Below, one piece after another: positions 1-15,928 of a DNA stretch of 22,577 nucleotides. The notes under the pieces are model-generated. The model had not been told where the DNA came from and ran no database searches. It worked only from the letters and a program-made list of their open reading frames with translations. The position numbers and the translations under genes were made by a program. This DNA is from a virus: IMG/VR virus record IMGVR_UViG_3300045963_000141, positions 1 to 22,577 of that record. The stretch is one strand, 5' to 3'. Each line of letters begins with the position of its first letter. The first letter of the stretch is position 1.

Positions 1-2939
1 GCCGCGTTCTTGTAGATGTTCGTGAGCCAAGCCCGGAACCGCTGGAACATCGGCTGGATCTCAAGGTTCGGCGCCTTGCCCTCGAGGAGGTAGGACTCGA
101 ACCCGCGGGCCCACTTCTCGTGCGCCTCCCGGAGCTCGGGCGAGATCACGCCGGTGTCACGGTAGGACTGGTTCAGGGCAGACCATTCTTCCGGCGACAT
201 CCCGAACCACTTCGCGATCGCCGCAACGTCGGTCTTGATGCCGTCCATCGCGTTCGGGGCGTCGGCCAGCTTCGTGTAGAGGTCCAGGAAGAAATGCCCG
301 GACTCGTGCAGGAAGGTCGAGAGGTTGGCCGCCCGGGTGATGCGGAGCGATTGCGTCAGCGGGTCATACGACCCGCGTTCGGTCTGGTTAAAACCGTCGC
401 CTACCTCCTCGCCGTTGACGTGTGTGGTCCGCACGATCTTGTCATCGAACACGACCAGATTGCGCGAGCCTTCGCCAGCGTTTCGGCTGTTGCCGTCTAG
501 GTACTTGATGCCTTTGATGCCGGCGTTGTCCAAGGTCGCGCTAGCTTCGCGGCGCATGTCCTCGGCCCCGTTGCCGCCAGCCAGCGCTTTGTAAAGTTCC
601 TCTCCCGGCTTATCGTGAAATAGCGCCAAGTATTTAGGATCATAGCCGGCCGCTTCTAGCGCGCGAGTTACGTGTGGTTGCTCACTCAGCGGCTTGTCCC
701 AGTCCAGGAAGTTGGCGACGTGGTGGTCCGGGATGTCTACGGTGTAGACGGCGCCGCGTATGGCATCGGCAGCCGCTTGCGTTTCAGGCGAGGCATCAAA
801 ATCCCCGGGGGATTTGAACAGCGCGTTAAGCGCTTGTGAGGGATAATCAAAACCGAACCAGTCGTCAGCGGCGAGCGCTTTTATCACCCGCGCCATCTTC
901 GGGGGCGCATCATCGCTTTTTGCCCACTCCAGCGCTTCATCGGTGCCGGCGTCATCTGGCATTTCGTTTCTGAATTGCCGAACCAAATCCCGGTACGTCA
1001 AAGCGCTTTTGTACCCTTCCGCCACGGTAGGGTTTTCCGCAAAATACAACCCGTGCCCGTAGGCTTGCGCGCCTTCGCCCGTGCCAATGTGGTTCAAGCT
1101 GAACCGTTTGAACTCATGCGGCGTGCCGTGGTAAGCCAACTGATCAAACCCACGGTCCCCCACCCCGCCCATGATCGTGGGCCCATGCTCGGCGTAGAGG
1201 GCGGCGGGCTCGACCCCGGCGCGGTGGGCCGCGACCGTGATCCCTTCCCGCATGAATTCCGCGTTCATCTTCGCGACGGCAGGGTGGTACATCCCGGTCT
1301 CGGTCAACTGCCGGTAGATGTCGTCGTAGATGTCCTGCCGCTGCTGCTGGTACGCGTCGTCGGCTTGCTTCTCGCCGGCCAGACTTTCGGCCAGCTGCTG
1401 CATCCGCTCGACCTGGGTCTGGTAGAACGCCTGCGCCTCCTCAAAGGTCTTGCCCTGCGGGTCGGCCTTCAACTGCTGCAGGATGTCGGCGTCGAGCGGG
1501 CCGCCCGCGATGTGTGTCGCGTAGTCGGCGACCGGGATCTGGACATCGCCCTTGGTCTGAAGCGCCTCGGTCATCTGGGCGTCAACGCCTGGCAGGGTCT
1601 GGGCCAGTTGCTCCCGGGTGATGCCTCGGGCGTCCAGGATCTTGGCGAGCGCCTCGCCGTTGACGTAGACGTTCGGAATCTTGCTGTCCTCGGTCACCGT
1701 CTGCAAGAACGCGTGAAACCCTTCGGGGTCGCGCTCGCGGTAGGGCCCGATGGTGGACAGTTGACCCAGGACCGCCAGACTATTGAGGTCGCGCTCGGCC
1801 TGCGCCGCCTGCGCGGCATCGGTGTAGGTTTGCCGGATCGCTTCTTGAACCCGGCGCTCGTGGGCGTCGTTCACCCCGTGCGCGCCGAAGATCGAGCCGG
1901 CCAGCGCCGACAGCATCACGTCCTCGGGGTCGAACTTCTGCTGCATCGTGTCGGGCAGGAAGTCGTTCATGATGGAGCGGTTCGCCTCGCCCTGCACCGC
2001 ACCCACCCCAGCGCCCACGAGCATGCGCGAGAGCAGCGTTCCCGGCGCGGACATAGGCATGATGCCGCCAGCAGTCTGCGTCCCGTACGAGGCTTCTCCG
2101 GCCCGTATGGCCTGCCCCATGTCGCCGGTCTGCGCGTAAACGTCCTTCATGGTGCTGACGGCGGCCGGCAGTGCTGTGGGGGCCATCCCCCGCACGCCAG
2201 CGCCCAGCGTGCCAGCGACAGCGCGCGCGACAGTCGAGGCGGCCGCTTCGGGGGCAGCGCCGCCCAGCGGCATCTTCGACAGCGCATCGACTACCCCGCC
2301 GGCCATGTACAGCGCCTTACCCACGATCCCGGTATCGGGGTCCGGGCTGAAGTCGCCGCCCTGCATCGCCTCGTCGTGAGGCGCTACAAAATTGCGGAAT
2401 ACAAAATCCTGTATGTCGGTCTTGGGCTTGCCGGTCATGAGCCCGGCAGCGGCGTCGATCGGCACGGCCAGCCCACCCAAGCCCAAGCCCAGCGTGCGCG
2501 CCAGCGAGCGGGTGCCGGCGCCGATCGCCCGGAACGGTTCCACCAGCATTTTGCCGACCAGCGGGCTGGCATCGGTCGCATACTCGCTGGCGCTGGCCGG
2601 CATAGAAAAATTGCGAGCGGCCTCCTCGGTGTCTGCCGTCTGCGGCACCGCGTCGTGGATCAGCGCAGCGGTCTGCGGTTTCTGGGTCAGGGTGTCGGCC
2701 AGGACCGGCGCCTTCTGCAGGGCCGCGTTCGCGAGCTCGGCTGCCGCCCGCTGCCGGTAGTCATCCGGGAACGAGGACACGACAGCGGGCGGCACGTTGA
2801 ACTTGCGCGCGAGCGCGTTATCCACGGCCGCTTTGTCGGGCGCGGTCTTCTGGGCGTCGACCACATTCTGGGTCGCGGTCGCGGTCGTGTTCCGCTGCAG
2901 CTGCGCGAAGTTTTGCTCGAGCTCGTCGTCAGAGATCAT
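1..2939 (-). CDS. Large ejected polyvalent virion protein with ART-like and zincin domains (partial, C-terminus off the left edge)
   Basis: The frame stays open from ATG at 2939 to the window edge, giving at least 979 codons. The start overlaps the stop of the upstream gene by one base (TGATG). Residues about 1-130 are polar and Ala/Gln-rich, and about 145-260 hold Gly/Ala-rich hydrophobic stretches. A segment near 465-475 reads GDVQIPVADYATHI, typical of polyvalent proteins. From Y603-H604-G605 through HGLYFAE (629-635) to GEGSRNLVVFDD (822-833) it matches the ADP-ribosyltransferase module of polyvalent proteins. H878-E879-S880-G881-H882 is a zincin HExxH motif, followed by the WARGFESYLLEGKAP stretch common in these zincins. 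Position last in the tail/ejection block suggests a counterpart of the T7 gp16 ejection protein. Family assignment is from recognition; enzymatic activity and ejection are inferred. The ART region is less G+C-rich than its flanks. Confidence 0.85.
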   Translation of the reverse strand, partial: MISDDELEQNFAQLQRNTTATATQNVVDAQKTAPDKAAVDNALARKFNVPPAVVSSFPDDYRQRAAAELANAALQKAPVLADTLTQKPQTAALIHDAVPQTADTEEAARNFSMPASASEYATDASPLVGKMLVEPFRAIGAGTRSLARTLGLGLGGLAVPIDAAAGLMTGKPKTDIQDFVFRNFVAPHDEAMQGGDFSPDPDTGIVGKALYMAGGVVDALSKMPLGGAAPEAAASTVARAVAGTLGAGVRGMAPTALPAAVSTMKDVYAQTGDMGQAIRAGEASYGTQTAGGIMPMSAPGTLLSRMLVGAGVGAVQGEANRSIMNDFLPDTMQQKFDPEDVMLSALAGSIFGAHGVNDAHERRVQEAIRQTYTDAAQAAQAERDLNSLAVLGQLSTIGPYRERDPEGFHAFLQTVTEDSKIPNVYVNGEALAKILDARGITREQLAQTLPGVDAQMTEALQTKGDVQIPVADYATHIAGGPLDADILQQLKADPQGKTFEEAQAFYQTQVERMQQLAESLAGEKQADDAYQQQRQDIYDDIYRQLTETGMYHPAVAKMNAEFMREGITVAAHRAGVEPAALYAEHGPTIMGGVGDRGFDQLAYHGTPHEFKRFSLNHIGTGEGAQAYGHGLYFAENPTVAEGYKSALTYRDLVRQFRNEMPDDAGTDEALEWAKSDDAPPKMARVIKALAADDWFGFDYPSQALNALFKSPGDFDASPETQAAADAIRGAVYTVDIPDHHVANFLDWDKPLSEQPHVTRALEAAGYDPKYLALFHDKPGEELYKALAGGNGAEDMRREASATLDNAGIKGIKYLDGNSRNAGEGSRNLVVFDDKIVRTTHVNGEEVGDGFNQTERGSYDPLTQSLRITRAANLSTFLHESGHFFLDLYTKLADAPNAMDGIKTDVAAIAKWFGMSPEEWSALNQSYRDTGVISPELREAHEKWARGFESYLLEGKAPNLEIQPMFQRFRAWLTNIYKNA

Positions 2940-4708
2940 CAGAAACCCTTGTACATTTTCTGGATGCTGTCCTCGGTCACCGGCATGCCTTTCTTCTGCA
3001 GGAACGAGGTGATCCGGCTGCGGTCAGCCGGCGGGACAACGAACGGCGCCGCGCGTTGATCTGGCGTCATTTGGTAGACAGGCTTGTGGGCCGGACCCCC
3101 GATCTTCATCCCGAACAGGGTGGTCTCGGTCCCGGCCAGGGACTGGTCCTTGATCAGGGCGTGCCCGATACGGGTCAGATCCTCGTCGGCCAGCGGCTTG
3201 CCGGCCTCCTTCTGACGGAGGGCGACTTCGTCGTGGTACGCGGTGAATAGCTGCTCCATCTGGCGCGCGGCCGAAGTGCCGGGCTTTGGGTTCGTGTCGA
3301 ACCCGGCCGCCTCGAGGTCGATCTTCATCCGCTGAATCCCACGAACCGCCATGTCGGTCGGGTCCTCGCGCTTGACCGCGTTGCTCTTGATCTGGCCCTG
3401 CCGCTCGATCAGCGCCTGCAAGTGCGGCTTGGTCAGGCTGCCGCCCACCTTCAGCAGGTTCATGTCCGCGAACGCCTGCCGGTTGTCCGGGTCCGCCGAC
3501 ATCGCGAGCAGCGGGAAGAACGTCGCACTGTCGTCCGTTTTCGCGGTGTCCGGCTGCGCGGCGTTGATGTACCCGGTCAGGGTCGGCCCCAGATTGTTCC
3601 GGGTCATGTAGTCGTAATCAGCCGGCGACATGCTGGACAGTTTGAAGTTGCCCTTCGCCTGCATGATCTGGTTGTAATACTTGCCCAGGAACTGAGTCTC
3701 AGCTTGGCGCTGGGCGTGATCCTGCCGGGTGACGTCGGCAGACAGGTGCTGCAGCGCCACGTCGTAGGTGGTGGCGTCCAGCTTGCCGCCGCGGCGCAAG
3801 TCCTTGAGCGCTTCCTCCTGCGCACCGAAGTCGTTCGGGTGGTCCTTCTGCAGCTGCAGCGCAGTGTCGAGCCCGGCGTCCTTGGAGCTCCCGACCTGGA
3901 CCTGCTCCCCGAGCCGATCGCCAACCGCGACCGGCAGCAGACTGCGCACCGAATCCAGGTACTGTTTCGCGCCGGCGGTCTGGTTGTTGTTGAGCAGGTG
4001 CTGCACAACGGACGCGTCGGCGGTCGCCAACGTGTCGTGGACGTGTTGCTTCAGCGCATCGCCCTCAAGGCCCAGCGTCAGCGGGTCGCTGGCCGAGCTC
4101 GCGACCTCGGCCTCGAGCGCTGCCCGGTTGGCGAAAAAGTACGAGTTGTCGGCGCCCGGCACCGGGTTGTAGGAGACCGCCATCGCTTGCGTGAGCGCGC
4201 TCGCGCGGGCGGCGCTGGAGTCCACCGCGGCGACGTGCTGCTGCTGGGTCTTGTGGTTGGCGATCGCCGACGTCGCCGAGTTCAGGGTCGACGCCATCGG
4301 CCCCTGCAGCATGTTGCGGACGGCGTCGTTTGACGCTCCCTCGAGCAGCTGCTTCTGGGTCTTGCCGAGGGAGTCCAGGGTGTCGCCGGCGGCATCGACC
4401 GCGGCCTGCCCCCGCAGCGCCGAATACCCGGGGGTGTTCGACTGCGGATCACCGTAGAGTGCTGCGGTCGTGGCCTGCACCATCTGGGCGTGCAGGTTCT
4501 TGGCTTCGGTCTCGTTCTGCTGGATCTGCTGCTGGACCGCGATCTGGTTCGCCTCGGCGCCAGCCTGCTGTAGGTTCTGACCGGTTCGGATGGTCTCGCC
4601 CGGGCCCAGGTCCGCGAACGACATCAGCCGGGTCGGCGCCTGCAGCCGGATGTCGGGGACGTTCTGTGGTGTCGCTTGGGGCGTGTCGTAAATCGGAATC
4701 TGTGGCAT
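2939..4708 (-). CDS. Internal virion (ejection) protein, T7 gp15-like by position
   Basis: A 589-residue polar protein rich in Gln, Ala, Asp and Thr, with long predicted helical stretches (for example around residues 40-130 and 270-340) and no signal peptide or membrane span visible. It begins one base after the stop of the small internal virion protein and its own stop overlaps the start of the giant ejected protein by one base, so the three are probably translated as a coupled set. In podoviruses this slot, after the nozzle gene and before the largest internal protein, is filled by the second ejection/core protein (gp15 in T7, which is somewhat longer). Sequence similarity to T7 gp15 cannot be judged by eye; the call rests on order, size and composition. 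Confidence 0.75.
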   Translation of the reverse strand: MPQIPIYDTPQATPQNVPDIRLQAPTRLMSFADLGPGETIRTGQNLQQAGAEANQIAVQQQIQQNETEAKNLHAQMVQATTAALYGDPQSNTPGYSALRGQAAVDAAGDTLDSLGKTQKQLLEGASNDAVRNMLQGPMASTLNSATSAIANHKTQQQHVAAVDSSAARASALTQAMAVSYNPVPGADNSYFFANRAALEAEVASSASDPLTLGLEGDALKQHVHDTLATADASVVQHLLNNNQTAGAKQYLDSVRSLLPVAVGDRLGEQVQVGSSKDAGLDTALQLQKDHPNDFGAQEEALKDLRRGGKLDATTYDVALQHLSADVTRQDHAQRQAETQFLGKYYNQIMQAKGNFKLSSMSPADYDYMTRNNLGPTLTGYINAAQPDTAKTDDSATFFPLLAMSADPDNRQAFADMNLLKVGGSLTKPHLQALIERQGQIKSNAVKREDPTDMAVRGIQRMKIDLEAAGFDTNPKPGTSAARQMEQLFTAYHDEVALRQKEAGKPLADEDLTRIGHALIKDQSLAGTETTLFGMKIGGPAHKPVYQMTPDQRAAPFVVPPADRSRITSFLQKKGMPVTEDSIQKMYKGF

Positions 4709-4709
4709 G

Positions 4710-5246
4710 TCAGCCCCCCGTCGATTTGCGGTATGCGTACCAGGACTTCGCTACCCCGGCAGACCCAGCCAAGAGCGAACCCGCCCCAGCGGTAAACGGA
4801 CTGATCGCGCCGGCCGCGCTCTTTTCGGCGGCCGACTCGGCGTTGTAGTTGTCGGCGTTTACACCGTATCCCCACGCCCGGCGCGCGGCGTTGTCGCGAA
4901 TCGTGAGGGCATCGCGCTCGCCCATGTACTTGGAGCTCGCCAGGATCTCGCTGGCGCTGCCCTGCCCCATGTCCACCCCGCTGGCCGCCAGCGCCGTGCG
5001 CTGGTCGCCCATGAGCGCGGCGGTTTTCATCCGCTGGGCGTTCTCCTGGATCTGGCCTTGCTGGAGCTCCTGCGCTTGCTGGTAGTGCGCGATCAAGGCG
5101 TTGTTCGCCGCCAAGCCGGCCTGGTAGTCGAGGACGCCTTTTTGGGTATTGGCTTGGTTGATCGAGCCGACCAGCGACATCCCGGCGCCGGCGGTCTGCG
5201 CCATCGTGCCGTACTGCGCCAGGGATGCGGTATCTGGGATTGACAT
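4710..5246 (-). CDS. Small internal virion/core protein, T7 gp14-like
   Basis: A 178-residue Ala/Gln/Gly-rich protein. A perfect Shine-Dalgarno, TAGGAGG, lies five bases before the ATG and overlaps the end of the nozzle gene. Residues about 45-80 form a Gln-rich helix, followed by a conserved-looking GDQRTALAASGVDMGQGSASEIL segment, and the C-terminus (about 145-168) is Ala/Gly-rich and hydrophobic. Proteins with this pattern are the first of the three internal virion proteins in T7-type tails and are thought to help form the channel through which DNA enters the cell. Its neighbours, the nozzle upstream and two larger ejection proteins downstream, fit this role. Confidence 0.75.
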   Translation of the reverse strand: MSIPDTASLAQYGTMAQTAGAGMSLVGSINQANTQKGVLDYQAGLAANNALIAHYQQAQELQQGQIQENAQRMKTAALMGDQRTALAASGVDMGQGSASEILASSKYMGERDALTIRDNAARRAWGYGVNADNYNAESAAEKSAAGAISPFTAGAGSLLAGSAGVAKSWYAYRKSTGG

Positions 5247-10007: not shown

Positions 10008-10688
10008 CTAGGATGCGTTGCCGTAGAGGCGGGACGCGAGATCCTTGGGGGCGCCCTCGGGGGGCTTGGTGCCACCAGGAACCACGTTGTCCGCGGTCAG
10101 TTTTTGCCCGGCTCGGAAGAACGCCCGGATCACTTCCGGGTGGTTGTGCAGCCCCGAGTCGGCCAGCAACTTGCGCAGCCCATCGGACGCCAGGGCTTGG
10201 AAGCCCTTCTGAGCGATGGCAATGTTGGTGTCCCAAGTCTTCGCGTCCCCCTTGCCGCCGAGCTCGGGGTCGGCTTTTGATGCCGCCTCCATCTGAGCGA
10301 CGGCGGCCTGCACCGCGGCCTGCTGCTGCGAGGCAGTGGCTTTGGTGACGGCAGGACCAAGTTTGTCGACCAACTTCTGCGCGGCTTCCTGGGACAGGCC
10401 GAGTTCCTTCGCCACACCGGAGAGTTCGGAGACCACGGACGGGTCGAGGCTGACCCCTTCCGGCGCCTTGAATTCGTACTTCTCGGGGGCTTGGGGCGTC
10501 GTGGCGGCAGGCGTTGCAGCCGGCGCGCTGGCCTTTCCTTCGGCGCCTTGCGGCTGGGTGCTGGCGGGCGCGGCCGGTGCTACGGCCGGCGCTACGTCAG
10601 CGGGTGCGGCTGCTGGTGCTACAGCAGCTGCGGGCGTGGCACTGGCGCTGTTGTCCGTCGCTGCCGGTGCCGTCGCTTGTTCAGTCAT
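10008..10688 (-). CDS. Capsid scaffolding protein
   Basis: A 226-residue acidic protein. Residues 1-75 are a low-complexity Ala/Pro/Thr tract with no aromatic residues. It is followed by YEFKAPEGVSLDPSVVSELSGVAKELGLSQEAAQKLVDKLGP (about residues 79-120) and a helical, Gln/Ala-rich region, and it ends near GGTKPPEGAPKDLASRLYGNAS. This layout, disordered Ala/Pro head then YEFK.PEG..LD, is characteristic of podovirus and siphovirus scaffold proteins that shape the procapsid and then leave. It starts inside the end of the Bbp19-like gene (8-bp overlap) and is followed by the major capsid gene. Confidence 0.85.
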   Translation of the reverse strand: MTEQATAPAATDNSASATPAAAVAPAAAPADVAPAVAPAAPASTQPQGAEGKASAPAATPAATTPQAPEKYEFKAPEGVSLDPSVVSELSGVAKELGLSQEAAQKLVDKLGPAVTKATASQQQAAVQAAVAQMEAASKADPELGGKGDAKTWDTNIAIAQKGFQALASDGLRKLLADSGLHNHPEVIRAFFRAGQKLTADNVVPGGTKPPEGAPKDLASRLYGNAS

Positions 10689-14332: not shown

Positions 14333-15928
14333 TTATGCGGACGCCGCCGGGAGCGCGGTAAGAATTCGATTTGTTGCGCAAATAAAATCAATCGAGATAT
14401 TTACCACTCCGTTGACAGCTCCACCAAATCGAAAGGCATTCAAAATGGTTCCGGGAGTGTTGGTGGTATTGTGACTCACTCCATCCAGCTGGAAAAACCC
14501 GGTAAAATTAGGAATTACAGAGGCAACGCATCTATCATATTCGCCAAGTCCGTTGCTATTTGCCACCCCAAGAGTTGTCAAGTTGCCGAAGTTAACTTGA
14601 TTGGAATTAAACGTAAAGCTATGCAATCCAGTCGTCGAGTTCATGTACATCAACATTGAATGCTCAACCGAGCAATTTGCTGGATATGTTGTAACCGCGT
14701 CTCTCTTTAGTAAAAATTCCCAAACACCAACCGTTCCAGATACAACACCGTTTGCCGCAACTGTAGGAGTTCCAGAAATAACAAGCCGAACGACTGGTGA
14801 GCCTGTTGATCCCGTAAGAGTGTCAAGAGCAGAATTAGTCGTGACAGTCCACGTCATCGTTAACCCAGCAGTGGACGTATCGTCTTGCGTAGCCCAGCCT
14901 AAAGGAGGAGTTCCTACAAATGTAGCTGCACCTGAGTTTGTTCCGCCAATAGCGGTAAATCTACCTTGGGCCCCATGAACATTACCGCGCGGCGCTGTTG
15001 ACGCGTTGTATACATCACTGGGGCCTGTCAGGGCAAAAGGTTTTTTGCGATAAAGTTGTTGCACTGCAGGCTGAAGCGCAAGCCGTTTTGCGTATCTTCC
15101 GTATCCCGAGCAGTGCAACCCTGCCCCTACACCATCCCGTAACACTCCGCTTACCGTTGCTCTATTTCCGTTTCCAACCGAAGTGTATATCGAAGATGTG
15201 GTATCCAAAAAATACGGGGTAGTGTCTGCAAAAATTGCATCTGGAACAGACCTGCAATATTGTCGATACGCAGTATTAAGACTTATCGTGGCCGCAGTTG
15301 ATCCTGCTGTTGGGTCAACATTCATTAGAATCAAATGCCTCCCCCCGGCAGTGCGAAACGCGTTGTGATATTTGATCACGTTCGCAATAACTGTTTCAGG
15401 CGAAACTGACGCCCCGATGTCGTTAACGCCAATTGTAAGCACCATATCTACGGCATATCCAGACGCAATAGCATTGCCGACATTTAATGCCATATTTGCC
15501 AGCCGAACCGTGCTGGTCAAACTGGTGTTATTTGTTGCCGGAGTAGTTGTGCTGGTCCCATTTGATTGTGAGCCACCTACCCCAATCGAATTTGTCCATT
15601 GCGCCGCGCCTACAGCGGCAGTGCCAGCATTTGAATAATTCAACTCAATATCATACGGCTGAAAGCAAGTAAGCCATTTGATTGCCTCTTTTGGCTCGTC
15701 GGATTTGCTGTCACCGTCAAACATTACTTGCACGGTTGGGAAAATCTGCGAAGTTTGTCGCTTGAATTGCGATGAAACAGACACCACCCCATTCGCAATC
15801 GAGATGCCGGAGCCTGCGGTGCCGCCGACGCCGATCTGCTCCTGCCCACTACCATCGAGAAACCCTTGCACCGATTTGGTAATAGGGTCCAGCAGTCTGC
15901 CGTCCGGCGTTTTGATATATCCACTCAT
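14333..15928 (-). CDS. Tailspike/receptor-binding protein with SGNH-hydrolase (esterase) domain
   Basis: A 531-residue protein with GAGGA before ATG 15928. Residues 1-55 look like a virion anchor (SGYIKTPDGRLLDP; GGTAGSGISIANGVVSVSS). The next domain carries SGNH blocks: D71-G72-D73-S74 (nucleophile Ser), G167-V168-N169-D170 (block III), and D265-G266 with H272 in RDGVGAGLHCSGYG (block V). The rest (about 300-531) is beta-rich and probably folds into the trimeric receptor-binding part. SGNH spikes usually remove acetyl groups from surface polysaccharides. From about 15780 to 14360 the DNA is clearly poorer in G+C than the neighbours (29 of 60 at 14521-14580 against 42 of 60 at 17401-17460), suggesting replacement of everything after the anchor. 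Confidence 0.85.
   Translation of the reverse strand: MSGYIKTPDGRLLDPITKSVQGFLDGSGQEQIGVGGTAGSGISIANGVVSVSSQFKRQTSQIFPTVQVMFDGDSKSDEPKEAIKWLTCFQPYDIELNYSNAGTAAVGAAQWTNSIGVGGSQSNGTSTTTPATNNTSLTSTVRLANMALNVGNAIASGYAVDMVLTIGVNDIGASVSPETVIANVIKYHNAFRTAGGRHLILMNVDPTAGSTAATISLNTAYRQYCRSVPDAIFADTTPYFLDTTSSIYTSVGNGNRATVSGVLRDGVGAGLHCSGYGRYAKRLALQPAVQQLYRKKPFALTGPSDVYNASTAPRGNVHGAQGRFTAIGGTNSGAATFVGTPPLGWATQDDTSTAGLTMTWTVTTNSALDTLTGSTGSPVVRLVISGTPTVAANGVVSGTVGVWEFLLKRDAVTTYPANCSVEHSMLMYMNSTTGLHSFTFNSNQVNFGNLTTLGVANSNGLGEYDRCVASVIPNFTGFFQLDGVSHNTTNTPGTILNAFRFGGAVNGVVNISIDFICATNRILTALPAASA

Follow-up and report, generated by a model that had tools for sequence, protein, structure and literature searches.

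Injected phage proteins that combine an ADP-ribosyltransferase (ART) with a metallopeptidase were described in 2017 among the polyvalent proteins, large phage proteins encoded near virion genes that join ART, zincin, and LPD domains, and that paper already records mosaic exchange of polyvalent domains in Helicobacter jhp1044 (Iyer et al. 2017, PMC5512222). The combination of ART and zincin is therefore a known polyvalent theme and not new. The zincin family CLCA_X, with consensus HExxHxxxD, was described in 2013 with residues 700-1000 of Bbp10 from Bordetella phage BPP-1 (AAR97676.1) as a seed, and its sister family CLCA comprises secreted animal and bacterial proteins that self-cleave (PMC3650047). 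A precedent in function is T4 Alt, an ART that the phage carries inside its head and injects (PMC5512222, PMC9503650), although it is an R-S-E class ART and a separate protein without a zincin.

The window, meaning the whole stretch of DNA analyzed, is a 22,577-base IMG/VR fragment. Positions 3-2939 on its minus strand hold a frame that starts with ATG, stays open for 979 codons, and is truncated where the contig stops. Its complete relatives measure ~1,900-3,100 aa, and the window holds only the N-terminal half. Judged from its sequence, this giant frame encodes the N-terminal part of a homologue of BPP-1 Bbp10, with an LPD22 domain, a conserved middle region, a putative ART, and then a zincin of the CLCA_X/polyvalent type, uniting domains with unrelated predicted activities in one polypeptide as polyvalent proteins do. 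Bbp10 shares with it the conserved parts, which we call the chassis, as well as gene order and a zincin with HESGH, but the cargo in the variable slot of Bbp10 is PBECR1, a predicted RNase, whereas the window cargo is a putative ART. We consider it probable, although well short of certain, that the frame represents a Bbp10-type ejection protein of a BPP-1-like podovirus, with a fixed chassis and an exchangeable enzyme slot in the zincin sheet, loaded here with an ART of H-Y-N type, and that this protein is packed, ejected, and cut, with the ART acting early. The features are as follows.

3..2939, minus strand: first 979 residues of a Bbp10-type giant protein truncated where the contig stops (open frame; homology and gene order with Bbp10)
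2604..2867, minus strand: LPD22 domain, residues 25-112 (Pfam, 37.6 bits against a cut-off of 28.6)
1170..1811, minus strand: middle region, a conserved chassis part, residues 377-590 (found in 127/127 homologues used)
1140..1148, minus strand: candidate N-side cargo border FDQ, residues 598-600 (motif statistics; position)
405..1145, minus strand: cargo, predicted ART-fold domain, residues 599-845, with H604, Y632, and N827 (profile, model pLDDT 91, fold matches, conservation)
384..392, minus strand: candidate C-side cargo border FNQ, residues 850-852 (motif statistics; position)
3..353, minus strand: predicted zincin metallopeptidase domain, residues 863-979 (motifs, fold matches, conservation; PMC3650047, PMC5512222)
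294-308, minus strand: zincin HESGH, residues 878-882
117-119, minus strand: zincin second-helix Glu 941
2939..4708, minus strand: 589-aa gene at the bbp11 place (gene order alone; no family match)
4710..5246, minus strand: putative internal virion protein, T7 gp14-like (phrog_418, E 3.5e-22; PF24072 at 26.6 bits, just below the cut-off of 27)

The giant gene lies beside virion genes in a block encoded on one strand, comprising the small and large terminase, a portal-type adaptor, a virion structural protein, a Bbp18 homologue, the capsid, the Bbp16 cement protein, tail proteins, the T7 gp14-like protein, the 589-aa protein, and the giant gene itself. This order corresponds to that of BPP-1 from bbp18 to bbp10, with the giant gene in the bbp10 place, and together with Bbp16 (Pfam, 55.1 bits against 27.1), a BPP-1-type capsid (phrog_212), and tail genes it bears out the BPP-1-like podovirus setting proposed in an earlier note on this DNA. 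Gene order and family likewise suggest that the giant protein enters with the DNA. Whether the giant gene closes the ejection block, as that note further proposed, cannot be judged from a truncated gene; in relatives, where downstream genes are shown, they are usually tail fibre or tail spike genes, with lysis genes in some. Megablast of the window returned a sole match, a 253-base capsid stretch in Pseudomonas phages. Within the virion block, a 531-aa protein (14333-15928, minus strand) shows over one stretch a weak likeness to GDSL lipases/esterases (PF13472, 24.8 bits against 32.9) and has no PHROG match. The gene at 10008-10688 (minus strand) bears the PHROG label "protease" (phrog_458), yet its product is the 41% homologue of BPP-1 Bbp18 adjoining the capsid gene, and we did not detect any Pfam protease domain in it. 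As BPP-1 capsid proteins are moreover uncleaved (PMC3863775), the label looks unreliable, and this product is an improbable candidate for an enzyme processing the giant protein.

Using tblastn, 36 phage records were matched by the giant protein, BPP-1 Bbp10 and Pseudomonas relatives matching in the middle region and zincin and not in the ART. Slots were searched for with profiles of the middle region (residues 377-590 of the window protein) and the zincin (863-979). The order middle region, slot, zincin was found in 85 fetched proteins, 70 of which were kept after removal of near-duplicates, and 56 further proteins of like layout came from genome contigs, mostly of Proteobacteria, giving 127 homologues with the window included. 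Across these homologues, fixed N-terminal and C-terminal parts flank one slot for unrelated enzymes, including ARTs, PBECR RNases, GNAT, and zeta toxin. Slot length varies from 21 to 1,926 aa inside the constant chassis, and the stretch after the zincin is ~1,100-1,350 aa in nearly all complete proteins. Among 71 slots, Pfam identified ART-PolyVal (31), GNAT (6), PBECR5 (5), LPD3 (4), DUF7178 (4), MuF_C (3), PBECR1 (3), zeta toxin (2), and PBECR3 (2), as well as RadC, ddrB-ParB, and others; the ART is one among many cargoes at this position. Over the 1,293 aa that lie outside the slot, two homologues (L109 and L123) show 98% identity, yet inside it they have nothing detectable in common, which is direct evidence of cargo exchange. 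Another (L167, 8665-9054), with a chassis 74% identical to that of L165, has a 130-aa slot similar to a portion of the larger L165 slot, which bears an ART; the L167 slot lacks the H and Y motifs and is possibly decayed cargo.

Besides Bbp10 with its PBECR1, Carin1 gp32 carries PBECR5. Gp39 of Caulobacter phage Jess A and the ORFs of ctEw122, DC33, and vir555 resemble the window protein in that the slot preceding their zincin holds an ART, but those of Jess A, ctEw122, and DC33 belong to another ART branch, with typical ART-PolyVal scores above the cut-off, while vir555 gives a weak match and belongs to the same H-Y-N branch as the window, but without an LPD22 match. The annotation of Jess A and other relatives would make the giant protein a lysin or "crystallin" acting on the cell wall, and residues 720-837 of the window protein give a weak match to a PHROG named "endolysin". 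That stretch, however, falls within the ART cargo, and Pfam scans of the window protein and, over their whole length, of seven relatives returned no lysozyme, amidase, or crystallin domain, so that a cell wall function appears very improbable. A match to PHROG 9880 spans residues 238-587.

The predicted zincin of the window protein received no family call from Pfam or NCBIfam, and a sequence search against solved structures returned nothing credible for it. Its motifs are nevertheless those of zincins, with an Asp four residues past the second His (HESGHFFLD, 878-886) and a second-helix Glu (HExxAxxxE, 940-948). HExxH is intact in all 127 homologues, of which part of the viral set was fetched by an HExxH-like pattern and 56, the genome set, were gathered without HExxH in the pattern; the second-helix Glu motif is present in 124 of the 127. 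A model of the homologue with the shortest slot (L130, 21 aa; pLDDT 83.4) shows a single strand directly ahead of the slot and two more behind it, followed by the HExxH helix, and its matches in the PDB, weak with a best E of 0.054, include the zincins lethal factor, IrrE, N4 vRNAP, abylysin, and selecase. Since the polyvalent zincin domain is described as having an N-terminal helix and a sheet of three strands (PMC5512222), the most likely place of the slot is between strands 1 and 2 of this sheet, the pairing being read from the order of secondary structure.

Both ends of the slot are marked by a short motif. In the first set, hydrophobic-x-Q was found on the C-side in 69 of 71 slots (z 12.4 against shuffles) and on the N-side in 57 of 71 (z 6.5), z-scores that overstate independence because the sequences are related. 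As the motif had first been noticed by eye on this initial set, it was retested on the independent genome set, where the C-side motif occurred in 53 of 56 proteins against 18 expected, with L, F, or Y as first residue in 52 of the 53, and the N-side motif in 42 of 56 against 21 expected. Altogether the C-side motif is present in 122 of 127 homologues, and 89 of 116 loaded slots have the motif at both ends. The first Q is mostly 10-13 residues past the middle region, and, as a point against a border on this side, the N-side motif and the first ART strand overlap in the model of the window protein. The border codons vary (Q is CAG in 38 and CAA in 30; 13 codons occur at the first position), and the constraint therefore acts on the protein; LxQ as a DNA recombination site is unlikely for the same reason.

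In the reading that we favor, the giant protein would be packaged into virions and ejected alongside the DNA and the gp14-like and bbp11-like proteins, the zincin would cut near the [L/F/Y]xQ borders and so free or trim the cargo, and the freed ART would modify host molecules with NAD ahead of phage gene expression. The cleavage proposed for the giant protein gains support from the self-cleavage of the sister family CLCA (PMC3650047) and from the proposal by Iyer et al. that polyvalent proteins are autoprocessed (PMC5512222). We did not find virion proteomics on Bbp10 or its family in the open literature. Alternatively, the polyvalent protein may stay uncut, the zincin acting on host proteins or in assembly only, the cargo working while attached, and the LxQ motifs being either structural linkers by which the hairpin of the zincin is closed or relics left where modules were joined. 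The N4 vRNAP, which has a related domain, is packaged uncut (PMC5512222), and this counts against cleavage, as does a Pro after the Q in 9 of 68 C-side borders. The zincin is also intact in 10 of 10 nearly empty carriers, most of which still have motifs (a single motif in five carriers, two motifs in three carriers, and none in the other two), so that cargo release cannot be its sole role. Against an uncut protein, the motif also recurs between modules in long slots, away from the zincin: ART modules with further cargo behind them end in it in 17 of 18 cases against a 33% background (p 7e-8). Spacing from the C-side motif to the chassis is variable as well. On balance we judge an uncut protein to be unlikely, although it deserves serious weight, and retain cleavage at the borders as the preferred reading.

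The cargo of the window protein matches ART-PolyVal (PF18760) at residues 602-645 with 23.4 bits in the full protein (E 1.1e-4) and 28.7 bits when the segment is scanned alone (E 2.5e-6), both below the cut-off of 31.2. Searching solved structures by sequence gave spurious gp41 matches and one very weak toxin match for the ART. In the PDB, a model of residues 590-979 (pLDDT 91.1) matches best the cholix and exotoxin A catalytic domains and, lower down, tankyrase, all H-Y-E-type ARTs, and all weak matches (E 0.17 or worse), while it matches models of viral ART-PolyVal-like proteins down to E 1.8e-18. The motifs YHG (603-605), HGLYFAE (629-635), GEGSRNLVVFDD (822-833), and HESGH (878-882) lie exactly where the earlier note placed them, and neither they nor HExxH can be attributed to chance, given the conservation of the latter and the invariance of H604, Y632, and N827 in 42 of 42 relatives, which include small stand-alone ARTs and ARTs of other large phage proteins and were gathered with patterns that covered Y632 and not H604 or N827. 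One giant protein in a BPP-1-like virion block does join a predicted ART-fold domain to a zincin as that note had supposed, but not with an H-Y-E site: the His and Tyr of the NAD site are present, whereas the acidic third residue of the H-Y-E/D superfamily is Asn, giving the triad H604-Y632-N827. In the sister branch the third position is E, D, T, or others, and the 99.5% profile match of that branch is somewhat inflated because two H-Y-N sequences were among those that built the profile. An alignment spanning middle region, ART, and zincin together was discarded, its middle region being misplaced in most rows. On sequence grounds we file the window ART as a putative distinct branch, related to or working like ART-PolyVal.

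The Asn makes ART activity uncertain, and the H-Y-N branch may be either an active ART or a binding module. A catalytically dead or merely binding cargo would fit the strict retention of N827 where the sister branch has E, D, or T and where Iyer et al. give polyvalent ARTs as H-Y-D (PMC5512222). Against it, H604 and Y632 are kept as strictly as N827, and so are the pocket residues around them. Some PARP-type ARTs that lack the Glu are still active, which also counts against it. A dead or binding cargo seems improbable to us, if credible. The boldest form of the preferred reading makes these proteins injected cargo carriers, holding exchangeable enzymes inside the metallopeptidase that frees them, with an [L/F/Y]xQ processing site closing every module, and regards the H-Y-N ART as a new branch that is catalytically active; as a whole, we rate it as rather doubtful.

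Iyer et al. do not, in the accessible part of their paper, describe a single defined slot that sits within the zincin and is bordered by [L/F/Y]xQ (PMC5512222), and a search of the open literature (subscription journals and supplementary files being outside it) found neither a constant chassis whose one slot is set into the zincin nor the border motif nor the H-Y-N branch, all three of which are, within that literature, new here. The giant protein of the BPP-1 group, now labeled "hypothetical", "crystallin", or "lysis protein", thereby gains a concrete anatomy of conserved carrier and cargo slot. If the favored reading is true, it names a cut-site motif checkable by mass spectrometry of virions or infected cells, accounts for the exchange of injected effectors among related phages, and draws attention to an ART branch whose third active-site residue is unusual.

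In Sulfitobacter phage phiGT1_5 (L009, 4620-5783) and loci L019-L098, H-Y-N ARTs also occur as small separate proteins (~300-450 aa) and in other giant proteins, and the branch is therefore widespread beyond the BPP-1 group; the small phiGT1 gene sits directly after the portal gene. Limnohabitans phage DC33 (L014, PQ492659) is filed under Inoviridae, yet has a 39-kb genome with a BPP-1-like giant protein and tail genes.
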